From the NCBI GenBank assembly GCA_029248525.1, contig JAQWJE010000027.1, positions 1-64,000 of the forward strand: DNA of 64,000 nucleotides, in the 5' to 3' direction. Each line of letters begins with the position of its first letter. The stretch's first letter is position 1. The position numbers and the translations under genes were made by a program. The notes below the pieces were generated by a model. It was not told the DNA's origin and made no database searches. It saw nothing but the letters and a program-made list of their open reading frames with translations. Of the stretch, positions 3,844-63,944 are shown piece by piece. Origin of the DNA: Candidatus Binatia bacterium. GTDB taxonomy: Bacteria > Desulfobacterota > Binatia > UBA12015.

Positions 3844-4889
3844 TCAACCCGGTCGCGCAGCACGGTTGAATCCTGGTCGCGAGGCAGGTGCGCCGCCAGC
3901 ATTTCGCCGAGGAATCCGCTCGTCACCAATTGCAAGCCGGCCAGCGAACAGAGCACTCCGAAAATCAGCAAGGGGTGCCGACTGAAAATTTGACCGTAAG
4001 CGAGCCGGAGATAGCTCACGTAACCGACGCAGCCAATTCCGATCGAGAAAAGAAATGCGCCCGGCAAACCAAAGAAATGGGCCGGGCGCGAGTCGAAGCG
4101 AGTCAGAAAGAGAACCGTGAGAAGGTCCATCATGCCGCGGAAAGCACGCCCCCAGCCATATCGCGACTGACCAAAACGACGGGCCCGATGAGAAACCTCG
4201 ATTTCGCCGACATGAAACCCCTTGAAGGCGGCGACGACCGGGATGAAGCGATGCAACTCCCCGTAGATGCGGACATCGCGAACCACCTCTTGTCGGTAAG
4301 CCTTGAACCCGCAATTGAAGTCATGCAATTCCAGGCCATAGAGTCGGCGCACGACCATATTGAAAACGCGCGAAGCCACAACGCGTGCCCGGGAATCGTG
4401 GCGCTTGCGCTTCCACCCGCTGACCAGATCAAAGCCGGACGCCAACAAAGCCACCATCCGGGGAATCTCTTTCGGGTCGTCTTGCAGATCGGCATCGAGC
4501 GAAAATACGATCGGTGCCCGCGCGTGACTGAACCCGACGGAAAGCGCTGCTGATTTACCCAAATTGCGACGCAGCCGAAACCCGCGGACTTCGGCATGGT
4601 CCGCGGCAAGCGATTGGACCAGCGACCAGGAGCCGTCATTGGATCCGTCGTCGACGAAAACCATCTCCCAGCGTGGGGTCCGCTGCCCGTCGGGAAGACC
4701 GAGCGGCGCCCAATCAAGCTCGGGGTTGTCCAAAACCGTGCGGCATTCTTCCAGCAGCAGCGCGAGGCTCGCCCTCTCGTTATGAAGCGGCGCAATGATC
4801 GAGATATCCGGTGTCCTCGGCTCGGGCTGCACGCCTCCGACTACAGTTGGGGAAGGCACGCCCTCCGTGCGTTGCGCTGACGACGGCAT
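3840..4889 (-). CDS. GT-2 polyprenol-phosphate sugar transferase (DPM1/GtrB/ArnC type)
   Basis: The protein has 349 residues. An N-terminal GT-A domain (about residues 28-250) shows ISIIAPLHNERASL, VFVDDGSNDGSW (residues 78-88) and the metal-binding SLDADLQDDP (130-139), then NCGFKAYR. Two C-terminal membrane segments follow (about 262-290 and 300-328). This is the architecture of enzymes that move a sugar from a nucleotide to undecaprenyl phosphate, giving the lipid-linked donor that GT39-type enzymes such as the one at 1142 use. ATG 4889 shares its A with the stop of the upstream ATPase gene (TGATG). A weakly related Pro-rich N-terminus of about 25 residues is variable. Confidence 0.88.
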   Translation of the reverse strand: MPSSAQRTEGVPSPTVVGGVQPEPRTPDISIIAPLHNERASLALLLEECRTVLDNPELDWAPLGLPDGQRTPRWEMVFVDDGSNDGSWSLVQSLAADHAEVRGFRLRRNLGKSAALSVGFSHARAPIVFSLDADLQDDPKEIPRMVALLASGFDLVSGWKRKRHDSRARVVASRVFNMVVRRLYGLELHDFNCGFKAYRQEVVRDVRIYGELHRFIPVVAAFKGFHVGEIEVSHRARRFGQSRYGWGRAFRGMMDLLTVLFLTRFDSRPAHFFGLPGAFLFSIGIGCVGYVSYLRLAYGQIFSRHPLLIFGVLCSLAGLQLVTSGFLGEMLAAHLPRDQDSTVLRDRVD

Positions 4890-60016: not shown

Positions 60017-60466
60017 TCAGTCCAGCGGGGCCACGACTTCCGCCTGTTGTGCTTCATGCGGGTGGTCGCTGGCCGGGTAAACCTTCAATTTTGTGATCAA
60101 CTGTCGCGAGAGTCGATTCTTGGGAAGCATCCCCTCGACCGCATCACGGATCAATTTTTCCGGGTTCTCTTCGCGCATCTTGGCGGCGGGCGTTGCCTTG
60201 ATCCCACCCGGGAAACCGGTGTGACGGTAGAAGATCTTGTCCGTTTCCTTTTTGCCGGAAAGCTTCACTTTGGAGGCGTTCAGAACAATGACGAAATCGC
60301 CGCAATCCACATGCGGCGTGAATGTCGGCTTGTTCTTCCCCCGCAACAAGACCGCAACCTGGGTTGCCAGTCTGCCCAAGGCGCGCCCTTCGGCGTCCAG
60401 AACTTTCCACTGACGCTGCTCGAGCGCCTCTTCGCGGGTCGTAAATGCTGTGCTTTGTTTGGCCAT
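60017..60466 (-). CDS. rplM: 50S ribosomal protein L13
   Basis: The 149-residue protein has KVLDAEGRALGRLATQVAVLLRGKNKPTF, VDCGDFVIVLNASKVKLSGKK and MLPKNRLSRQLITKLKVYPASDHPHEAQ, standard for L13. It is an early 50S assembly protein. It is 78 nt downstream of tRNA-Asp, with which it may be transcribed. Confidence 0.98.
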   Translation of the reverse strand: MAKQSTAFTTREEALEQRQWKVLDAEGRALGRLATQVAVLLRGKNKPTFTPHVDCGDFVIVLNASKVKLSGKKETDKIFYRHTGFPGGIKATPAAKMREENPEKLIRDAVEGMLPKNRLSRQLITKLKVYPASDHPHEAQQAEVVAPLD

Positions 60467-60544
60467 GAAGTTACTTTAAGTCGAATCCTGGCCCTTGCGG
60501 GCCAGCACTCTCTCATCCCTTTTTGAATACCCAGATCGAAGTAA

Positions 60545-60618
60545 CGGGGCCGACGAGACTTGAACTCGCGACCTCCGGCGTGACAGGCCGGCACTCTAAC
60601 CAACTGAGCTACGACCCC
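60545..60618 (-). tRNA. tRNA-Asp (GTC anticodon)
   Basis: The acceptor GGGGTCG pairs with CGGCCCC; the anticodon arm is CCGGC-CTGTCAC-GCCGG; the T-arm is GCGAG-TTCAAGT-CTCGT. The discriminator is G, as aspartyl-tRNA synthetase needs. CCA is not encoded. It lies upstream of rplM on the same strand. Confidence 0.97.
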
Positions 60619-60768
60619 GCGGGCCTTTTTCCACTAACAACCACCTCGGCGGGCAGCAAGACCCACGTCGGTTCACCTTCGCAAGCAAGCATGTGGCTGA
60701 TAAAGATGCTAGACCAATCTCTGATCCTGGCAGCAAAATGAATTTCAGATCCATGAGGAGAAATCAGA

Positions 60769-60870
60769 ATGCTTTTTGACGATTATATGATGTTTACATT
60801 CGGGGCCATGGTCGCCGCCGGCTGTATCGCCCTGACCTTCCTGATCCTGAGCGTCATCGAAGAAGATTAG
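60769..60870 (+). CDS. 33-residue single-pass membrane protein
   Basis: The frame runs from ATG 60769 to TAG 60870. It begins MLFDDYMMFTFGAMV, continues with one hydrophobic helix (about residues 8-30) and ends acidic (SVIEED). A strong AGGAG site lies eight nt before the ATG. The gene lies alone on the plus strand between two minus-strand tRNAs and is followed by a good terminator 55 nt later. Size and topology resemble small accessory subunits of membrane complexes, but no family is recognised. Coding status is supported by ribosome site, composition and terminator, not by homology. Confidence 0.6.
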   Translation: MLFDDYMMFTFGAMVAAGCIALTFLILSVIEED

Positions 60871-60925
60871 AAAATTTCCCGCCGGTGCTGATCGCGGCGA
60901 GAAAATTGAAGAATATTCGAAAAAA

Positions 60926-60953
60926 AGGGAACGAGCCTTCTGGCTCGCTCCCT
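60926..60953. terminator. Bidirectional terminator between the small ORF and tRNA-Val
   Basis: AGGGA-x-CGAGCC pairs with GGCTCG-x-TCCCT around a TTCT loop (11 pairs, one internal mismatch). TTTTT follows on the plus strand, and a run of seven A on the left becomes T7 for minus-strand transcripts. It ends both the 33-residue ORF transcript and the lon-HU-tRNA-Val side. Confidence 0.92.
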
Positions 60954-60962
60954 TTTTAATCA

Positions 60963-61035
60963 TGGGCGGTATCCGGATCGAACGGATGACCCTCGGCTTG
61001 TAAGGCCGATGCTCTCCCAACTGAGCTAACCGCCC
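60963..61035 (-). tRNA. tRNA-Val (TAC anticodon)
   Basis: The acceptor GGGCGGT pairs with ACCGCCC; the anticodon arm is TCGGC-CTTACAA-GCCGA; the T-arm is ATCCG-TTCGATC-CGGAT. The discriminator is A. CCA is not encoded. It follows HU by 57 nt and precedes a terminator. Confidence 0.97.
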
Positions 61036-61092
61036 AGATTCCGAACTACCGGTTTACGCGACGCATCATGGATGCGCCAGTCTTCACGGACT

Positions 61093-61365
61093 CTAGTTCA
61101 GAGAGTCCTTCAAGCCTTTACCGGCTTTGAATTTCGCTGCACGAGATGCAGCAATCTCAATGGTTTCTCCCGTTTTCGGGTTACGCCCTTGGCGCGCCTT
61201 ACGATTCGACACCGTAAAGGTTCCAAATCCGGAGATGTTCACTTTATCGTCAGCCTTCAGGGCCGTCGTGATATCATCAAAAATCAGATTTACCGTTCTT
61301 TCGGCCAATGCCTTCGGAAGGTCCATCTTGGTTGCCACTGCTTCGATCAGATCTGCTTTTGTCAT
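61093..61365 (-). CDS. hup: DNA-binding protein HU
   Basis: The 90-residue protein has MTKADLIEAVATKMDLPKA, the dimer core with VNISGFGTFTVSNRKARQGRNP, KTGETIEIAASRAAKFKAGK and a short C-terminus. It bends and compacts DNA as a dimer. IHF-alpha or -beta cannot be fully excluded, but the length and lon-HU order favour HU. The ribosome-binding region contains a nine-G run. Confidence 0.95.
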   Translation of the reverse strand: MTKADLIEAVATKMDLPKALAERTVNLIFDDITTALKADDKVNISGFGTFTVSNRKARQGRNPKTGETIEIAASRAAKFKAGKGLKDSLN

Positions 61366-61371
61366 CAGTCT

Positions 61372-61380
61372 CCCCCCCCC
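61372..61380 (-). promoter_or_regulatory. Nine-G run in the HU translation initiation region
   Basis: On the minus strand nine consecutive G lie just before AGA-CTG-ATG of the HU gene, forming part of the Shine-Dalgarno (GGGAG). The spacing between GGAG and ATG is four bases. Mononucleotide G runs of this length are prone to slippage during replication, which would change the sequence around the ribosome site by single bases. Confidence 0.6.
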
Positions 61381-61493
61381 TTTCGAGGTGACTCCCGGAT
61401 ATCAGGAGCTGGAAAGGCGTTCAAACGAAAGCTCAATGTTTTTGGGGGGCAAATCGAGACAGCGATCGAAGCTCGCTTTTTGCCACCAAGGTT

Positions 61494-63944
61494 CTAGTGA
61501 CGAATGACGTCCCCGGGCGAGTCAGCTTCGGGCGGAAACGGATTTGGAATAGTCCCGGTGGGCTTCAGGAAATCCTCGGGATTATCCAGAACCAGAGCCC
61601 TGCGAAGCACCACATCCATATGCGCGACCGCCTCGAGGGTGAGGTCTGCCCGGATGGACTCAGGGATATCCTGAATATCCTTCTCGTTTTCCTGAGGAAT
61701 CAGGATGTGCTTGATGCCGCCACGATGAGCCGCCAGGACTTTCTCCTTCAAACCGCCGATCGGCAGGACATTTCCGCGCAGAGTCACCTCCCCAGTCATC
61801 GCAAAATCCGATCGAACCGGAATGCGCGTCAGAGCCGAAACCAATGATGTGGCCAGAGTAATCCCGGCCGAGGGGCCGTCCTTCGGCGTCGCACCTTCGG
61901 GCACGTGAATATGGACATCGACCTGCTGGTAGAACTCGCGCGAAAGGCCGAGATCATCAGCCCGCGATCGCACATAGGACATGGCTGCCTGCGCCGACTC
62001 CTGCATCACCTCGCCCAGTCGGCCCGTAATTGTCAGCTTGCCCTTCCCGGGAACCACAGACACTTCGGTTTCGAGCAACTCTCCACCCATATCGGTCCAC
62101 GCCAGTCCGGTGGTTACGCCCAATTTGGCTTCCGTGCCCGCACGGCCGTAGCTGAACTTCTGGGGACCGAGGTACTTTTCCAAGTTCTCGGAGCGAATTT
62201 GCACGGGATCTTCGGACTTGGATCGAACAACTTCCACGACCACCTTGCGGCAAAGCCCCGAAAGCTCGCGTTCCAGACTGCGAACACCGGCTTCCTTGGT
62301 GTAGTGGCGAATCACGCCGAGGATCGCATTATCGGAGAAAGTCAGGGCTTCCTCTTCCAATCCATTGGCACCACGCACCTTGGGGACCAGATAGCGCTTG
62401 GCAATGTTGAGTTTTTCGATCTCCGTGTATCCGGGGATTCGAATGATCTCCATGCGATCCTGCAGGGGGCGCGGGATTCCTTCGAGATTATTCGCCGTCG
62501 TGACGAACATCACCTTCGAAAGATCATAATCCACGTCCAGATAATGGTCGTTAAAGGTCGTATTCTGCTCCGGATCGAGCACTTCCAACAAAGCCGAAGA
62601 AGGGTCGCCCCGGAAGTCGGTCGACATCTTGTCGATCTCGTCGAGCAGGAAGACGGGATTTCCGGACTGCGCCTTTTTCATCGACTGGATAATCTTGCCC
62701 GGCAAGGCGCCGATATAGGTCCGGCGGTGGCCACGAATTTCAGCCTCGTCGCGCACTCCACCCAGAGAAATACGAACAAACTGGCGTCCGATGGCGCGAG
62801 CCACCGATTTGCCCAATGAGGTTTTCCCGACCCCGGGAGGGCCCACGAGACAAATGATGGGCCCCTTCAGTTCTCCGACGCGAGCCTGAACGGCAAGATA
62901 CTCGATAATGCGCTCCTTGACCTTCTCGAGGCCATAGTGGTCATCATCGAGAACGCCTTCGGCGGCATCGAGATCGATCTGATCATCAGAGTATTCGCCC
63001 CAAGGCAGGGCAATCATCCAGTCGATATAGTTGCGGACGACGGTCGCCTCGGCGGACATGGGCGACATCATCTTGAGCTTCTTCAGCTCCTTGACCGCCT
63101 TGTCCTGAGCTTCTTCGGTCATCTTCTTCGCGAGGATCTTCTCCTCGAGTTCCTGGATTTCGTTCTTGAATTCGTCCTTCTCACCGAGCTCCTTCTGGAT
63201 GGCTCGCATCTGCTCGTTGAGATAGTACTCCTTCTGGGTCTTCTCCATTTGTTTCTTGACCCGCGAACGGATCCGCTTCTCGACCTCGAGAATCTCGATC
63301 TCGGACCGCATGAAGCCAAGAACTTTCTCGAGCCTGGCCGACGGGTCTTCCGTTTCCAGCAACCCTTCCTTGTCCTCGATCTTGATGCTCAGGTGCGCGA
63401 CAATCGTATCCGCCAGGCGCGCAGGTTCCGTGATCGACGCTACGGACATGATCGCCTCTGGCGGGATTTTCTTGTTGAGCTTGACGTAATTCTCGAATGT
63501 CGAATTTACGCTCCGAACCAGAGCCTCGATCTCGTTGGTGACCTCGCAGTTTTCCTCGATTTCCTCGACGTCGACCAGGAAAAATTCGTCATGCGGAACG
63601 TATCGCTCGATACGCGCGCGCTTCTTTCCTTCGACCAGCACCTTCACGGTGCCGTCCGGGAGACGGAGCAATTGGACGACTGTGCCCAGCGTGCCGACAT
63701 CGTAGATATCGGCCTCCGCAGGCTCGTTGGTCTTGGCGTCTTTCTGAGCCGCCAGAAGCACAAATTTCTGCTTGTTCATCGCCTCTTCGAGGGCGCGGAT
63801 CGAGCGCTGGCGGCCTACGAAGAGAGGCACGACCATATGCGGGAATACAATAATATCCCGGAGGGGCAGGAGGGGAACGCGCAGACCGCCACCTGAATCC
63901 TCGGTGTCTGCCTCGGGCTTATCCTTATCATTGCGGAACAACAT
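61494..63944 (-). CDS. lon: ATP-dependent protease Lon
   Basis: The 816-residue protease has the N-terminal substrate-binding LON domain (about 20-215: [22 protein letters not shown]), a coiled-coil stretch (about 225-310), the AAA+ module with Walker [10 protein letters not shown], Walker [10 protein letters not shown] and sensor regions, and the C-terminal protease with catalytic Ser692 (PKDGPSAG) and Lys735 (GGLKEK). It degrades misfolded and regulatory proteins. It precedes HU by 128 nt and follows a gene that may be clpX. Confidence 0.98.

Follow-up and report, generated by a model that had tools for sequence, protein, structure and literature searches.

A 33-codon frame in a tRNA spacer of a Binatia genome very probably encodes a single-pass membrane protein that belongs to a small family so far seen in one bacterial lineage

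The locus discussed here belongs to a 64-kb stretch of DNA (referred to in its whole length as the window) and has the gene order lon - hupB - tRNA-Val - ORF - tRNA-Asp - rplM - rpsI. Among these genes only the ORF is read from the plus strand, with lon, hupB, both tRNAs, rplM and rpsI all on the minus strand. The features are as follows.

60017–60466, minus strand: rplM (ribosomal protein L13), a conserved neighbour
60544–60619, minus strand: tRNA-Asp(GTC), from an Rfam search
60635–60659, minus strand: probable tRNA-Asp promoter, TTGCYG then TGTTA, in the window and in all eight relatives read
60756–60760, plus strand: AGGAG ribosome-binding site, 8 nt before the ATG, read from the sequence
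60769–60870, plus strand: ORF of a putative single-pass membrane microprotein (group A, see below), 33 codons and a TAG stop, based on homologues and a held-out profile
60922–60957, both strands: bidirectional terminator-like hairpin common to the ORF (plus) and tRNA-Val (minus), the stem being unbroken on the minus strand
60962–61036, minus strand: tRNA-Val(TAC), from an Rfam search
61093–61365, minus strand: hupB (HU DNA-binding protein), a conserved neighbour

Searching positions 60300–61500 with Rfam yielded only the two tRNAs at the gathering score. The initial annotation described the ORF as isolated between two oppositely oriented tRNA genes; it does lie between two tRNAs, but both of these, being on the minus strand, oppose the ORF and not each other. 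The intrinsic terminator likewise attributed to the ORF does exist as a hairpin, which starts 51 nt past the stop codon, but it carries T-runs on both strands and is common to the ORF and tRNA-Val, lying 4 nt beyond the 3' end of the latter. Because the stem is unbroken on the minus strand (-27.3 kcal/mol for a 45-nt slice) and is interrupted by a single mismatch when read from the plus strand (-20.5 kcal/mol for a 38-nt slice), the hairpin suits tRNA-Val no less well than the ORF, and it is not a terminator of the ORF alone. On the opposite side, the promoter-like pattern TTGCYG...TGTTA before tRNA-Asp recurs in each of the eight relatives (loci L022 and L024–L030), so that the first part of the region upstream of the ORF belongs to tRNA-Asp. 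The upstream sequence showed no promoter for the ORF itself, and the 150 nt before it contain no sigma-54-like site with correct spacing, the nearest look-alike being one base too wide.

The ORF translates as MLFDDYMMFTFGAMVAAGCIALTFLILSVIEED, followed by the TAG stop. The short plus-strand frame with its AGGAG, the single membrane helix and the acidic end of the product, all pointed out previously, stand up to closer inspection. The Kyte-Doolittle maximum over a 19-residue stretch reaches 2.39 at residues 12–30, AlphaFold run on the single sequence predicts one helix spanning residues 2–32 (mean pLDDT 93.1), and an acidic tail follows the helix, the product having a net charge of -5 and not a single basic residue. 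With fewer than 50 residues and one hydrophobic helix, it has the general make-up of a small single-helix membrane protein. It is also the sole ORF of 25–60 amino acids in the 64-kb window with an AGGAG 5–10 nt before its ATG. One hundred first-order Markov copies of the window, used as a null model, contained on average 3.91 such ORFs per copy; those that also reached a hydrophobicity of at least 1.8 over 19 residues averaged 0.02 per copy and were present in 2 of the 100 copies.

The same spacer could be compared in eight relatives from other genera, in which both tRNA-Val and tRNA-Asp were located beside hupB (the comparison left out G005, with only tRNA-Val in the locus, and G008, G011 and G012, for which no close hupB copy was found). 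The tRNA-to-tRNA stretch measures 47 to 365 nt in these genomes versus 342 nt in the window. In none of the eight does it contain an open frame that reaches 1.8 in membrane-helix score, and the family profile introduced below gives nothing above noise there (best E 8.9). The 365-nt spacer of G007 (L025, 1916–2280) is as long as that of the window and bears short GGCCGGC-type repeats, with no family member. In the same-species genome G058 the DNA of the ORF is identical to that of the window, and is thus uninformative on selection.

Homologues do, however, occur at other sites. When the genomes of relatives were searched with the 33-residue query, matches were obtained in G012 (E 7.6e-4) and G011 (E 0.07), in both cases full-length 33-codon ORFs with the same start and stop, located at a different locus from that of the window and 45% (G012) and 36% (G011) identical to the window ORF. 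The alignment of these three sequences, our group A, has 12 of 33 columns invariant, including MLFDDY and the small residues G12, A16 and C19. A profile of the three (A1) weakly matched ORFs in G009, G011 and G005, which constitute group B, and a six-row profile extended this group to G012. Group B ORFs, thus known from four genomes, are 36–37 codons long, conform to the pattern MQ..x[VI]DDYILFIxGMVVFG... and are encoded on the plus strand. Their neighbours in the loci read are minus-strand genes, SH3-like on one side and folA-thyA on the other (SH3-like and thyA as judged from the sequence by eye). Group C emerged from further profiles, with 31-residue members of the pattern xEAYVMxMxG... in G001, G006 and G010; in G001 about 230 nt lie between the ORF and the start of the next gene on the same strand, which by eye is UspA-like. 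The three groups sit at different loci, with B and C together spanning 31–37 residues and seven genomes, and all ten members (the window ORF and nine homologues) are preceded by a purine-rich ribosome-binding site at a similar distance from the start.

Profiles built without the window sequence provide a check on its membership. A nine-row profile aligned with the window ORF along its full 31 positions, at E = 2.2e-4 in its genome. No other match among 395 genomes was as good, a KdpF coming second at E 0.003, which shows the noise level; a similar profile retrieved the window ORF with E = 8.7e-7 among 19,743 ORFs from the loci compared. Both profiles contain the group A sequences of G011 and G012, which carry most of the signal. 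When the whole of group A was left out, the profile of B and C matched the group A members of G012 (0.0038) and G011 (0.0092) with a false match at 0.0085 between them, and the window ORF at 0.81; a profile lacking group C matched the members of G001 at 0.0012 and G006 at 0.11. Group A is thus firm and the union of the three groups appears likely, the link of A to B and C being only suggestive.

At least one member is present in nine of the 14 genomes of this bacterial family (G000, i.e. the window genome, G058, G001, G005, G006, G009, G010, G011 and G012), with one copy only in the window genome, and none was found in G002, G003, G007 or G008, in each case at E up to 0.2. A candidate from G004, MAEYVYPIVVGLVV... 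(E 0.006), was not counted as a member. Near positions 4756–4809 (minus strand) of L216 from G004 there is a candidate small membrane ORF, MAEYVYPIVVGLVVAAIALSLAMLVANATDVPHRP, with unproven kinship to the family. Outside this bacterial family no match covering all profile positions was obtained, whether in the class (148 genomes, E up to 0.2) or in the phylum (395 genomes, E up to 0.1); the weaker matches that were translated were unconvincing by eye, most of them belonging to longer frames or to frames on the opposite strand, and one being a KdpF. As seen so far, the microprotein family is thus restricted to this Binatia-like family of bacteria, so called because the closest named relatives according to the HU protein bear the labels Deltaproteobacteria or Candidatus Binatia.

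The curated resources contain nothing convincing for it. Pfam and NCBIfam models matched one or a few members each: the best in Pfam were DUF6672 at E 0.01 and, for one member, COX7a at 0.011, the best in NCBIfam had E 0.073, and a CcoM model, again for one member, gave E = 0.45. The best PHROGs match, at E 0.014, was to a family of unknown function. PADLOC, plasmids and phages gave no match, nor did Foldseek, and a search by sequence of solved structures in PDB gave nothing meaningful (best E 0.71). A full-text literature search for small proteins of Binatota or microproteins of Binatia found no paper, and one for UBA12015 led to a paper on saltern metagenomes.

Members of the family in related genomes are under purifying selection, in two genera, as judged from dN and dS (NG86; the core comprises 28 codons). 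The ratio dN/dS for the G011 and G012 homologues is 0.20/0.96; over the core, the six pairs within group B have dN of 0.065–0.129 and dS of 0.38–1.65, and the three pairs within group C have dN of 0.064–0.34 and dS of 0.34–1.21. In all ten within-group pairs, the window left out, the nucleotide identity of the ORF exceeds that of either 80-nt flank. For the window copy itself the signal is not clear, dN being close to dS, in pairs too diverged to inform: against the G011 homologue dN is 0.69 and dS 0.72 in the core (0.60/0.95 for all 33 codons), and against that of G012 0.60 and 1.10 (0.51/1.55). The low dN/dS that the initial annotation proposed to look for was found in relatives, but not clearly for the window copy, and coding conservation across species is strongest among the relatives and indirect for the window ORF.

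The surroundings of the group A homologues in G011 and G012 suggest a possible functional context. In both genomes the homologue comes first, ahead of a pair of adjoining ferritin-like genes on the same strand, the next start lying 23 and 47 nt away. The encoded proteins are weakly similar to models of R2-like ligand-binding oxidase (R2lox) and aldehyde decarbonylase, and among solved structures the first is closest to a VlmB homologue. Seven of the 14 genomes have a close copy of the first gene (at least 76% identity), and the second adjoins it in six of these, G002 being the exception. The ferritin-like (diiron) gene loci are listed here.

L127, 7866–9532
L126, 2642–4307
L130–L134

Upstream of the diiron gene, all seven genomes with a close copy have a sigma-54-like site, scoring 8 to 10 of 11 against the sigma-54 consensus. 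Among 500 Markov copies of the same 300 nt, the score was reached by 83 for G011, 15 for G012, 0 for G009, 2 for G003, 14 for G002, 2 for G007 and 1 for G010. The sites are thus most weakly supported at the two loci that have the microprotein (G011 and G012), where its ORF sits between the site and the diiron gene; it is absent from that place in the other five. Before group B and C ORFs the scores do not stand out from those of shuffled sequence (114 to 423 of 500); only G001 (9 of 11, reached by 4 of 500) differs, with a site that has no counterpart in its two group C relatives.

The simplest way of dismissing the ORF would be to regard it as a non-coding chance frame in a tRNA spacer. The initial annotation itself had named the loss of the frame beside conserved tRNAs as evidence against a gene, and this is literally what is seen in all eight other-genus relatives with both tRNAs, with no diverged genome having the ORF at the same site. 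However, related genomes have full-length homologues with the same start and stop elsewhere, and since family members occur at other genomic sites, the test by flanking tRNAs misleads here. Together with the matches of the held-out profiles, the purifying selection in relatives and the comparable ORF in only 2 of 100 Markov copies, this makes a chance frame very improbable, and we consider positions 60769–60870 to be very probably a gene for a single-pass membrane protein. That its product might be a KdpF-like accessory subunit of the K+-transporting ATPase is suggested by the one helix of about 30 residues and the weak pattern similarity of KdpF to the family profile: a KdpF (Pfam E 3.1e-7), followed by a frame that reads by eye like KdpA, ranked second in the phylum scan, behind the window ORF. 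Yet kdpA was found in none of the nine genomes carrying the family (of which G058 is only 63% complete and the window genome assembly 98.92%), its single occurrence among the 14 genomes being in G003, which lacks a member. Moreover, the KdpF model PF09604 matched none of the members scanned, the KdpF of L250 serving as a positive control (E = 3.1e-7). As far as the assemblies show, KdpF is thus rejected, and we assign this identity a negligible probability.

Two further readings concern what the protein might do. It could be a membrane-active peptide that slows or kills the cell when made, either like a type I toxin or like the energy-dampening small membrane proteins induced by stress, of which YohP is the type (PMC12719787). 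Size, class, the single helix and the stand-alone gene fit, as might the sigma-54-like site before the homologue in two relatives, which a regulated stress gene could have, the likeness to YohP lying in size and class and in this possibly regulated promoter. Against it speak the one copy in the window genome (E up to 0.2), the lack of any plasmid, phage or PADLOC match, the charge of -5 with no basic residue, and the purifying selection on members in two genera, so that a toxin seems less likely and this reading as a whole unlikely. The other possibility is that the microprotein is a membrane partner or anchor of the diiron enzyme, which it would bring to the membrane or control. While the homologues in G011 and G012 do lead the diiron pair behind a sigma-54-like site of the type seen at all seven diiron genes, five of the seven genomes lack the microprotein at that place, the window ORF has no correctly spaced site, and the window genome holds no close diiron copy. 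Because the latter has only four distant matches (30–34% identity), a role with the diiron protein cannot be the general function, and we reject a fixed partnership as a general rule, the two not always being found together; as an explanation of the microprotein we find it distinctly unlikely. We have equally little confidence in a scenario in which the gene moves between genomic sites and promoters, standing alone between tRNAs in one genus and elsewhere captured at the head of a sigma-54-type diiron operon, where its product may anchor or gate the enzyme.

The reading that we favour, with some reservation, is that the ORF is a genuine gene that forms a unit by itself, and that its 33-residue product, a single-pass membrane protein from a small lineage-restricted family, would act in trans on a larger membrane protein, probably as an accessory subunit or regulator. 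The helix of CydX or AcrZ packs against a larger partner protein. Like these and similar single-helix accessory proteins, the ORF product has one helix, no enzyme domain and a length in the range of 30–50 residues; unlike them, it matches no curated model convincingly, including those of CydX and other named small oxidase subunits, and has no partner gene adjoining it in the window. Small proteins of this kind are easily missed in annotation (PMC4325964, PMC7267776, PMC10903887).

Concerning orientation, partner and effect, we infer the following. An acidic, tyrosine-bearing start (DDY), one hydrophobic helix and an acidic tail would be arranged with the N-terminus out and the C-terminus in, since basic residues, in the relatives that have them, sit at the C-terminal end. 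Action in trans is suggested by the gene's solitary position in the window and by its neighbours differing from genome to genome. The face of small residues (G12, A16, C19) may pack against a larger membrane protein and, by analogy with CydX or AcrZ, may tune or stabilize that partner.

The finding would weigh more if a partner complex were found. As it stands, it adds a microprotein family from uncultured bacteria that the curated libraries searched do not hold. It also indicates that a small gene can be real though absent at the same site from every comparable relative of another genus, and it is thus a warning that loss of local synteny alone is an unsafe test of small genes.
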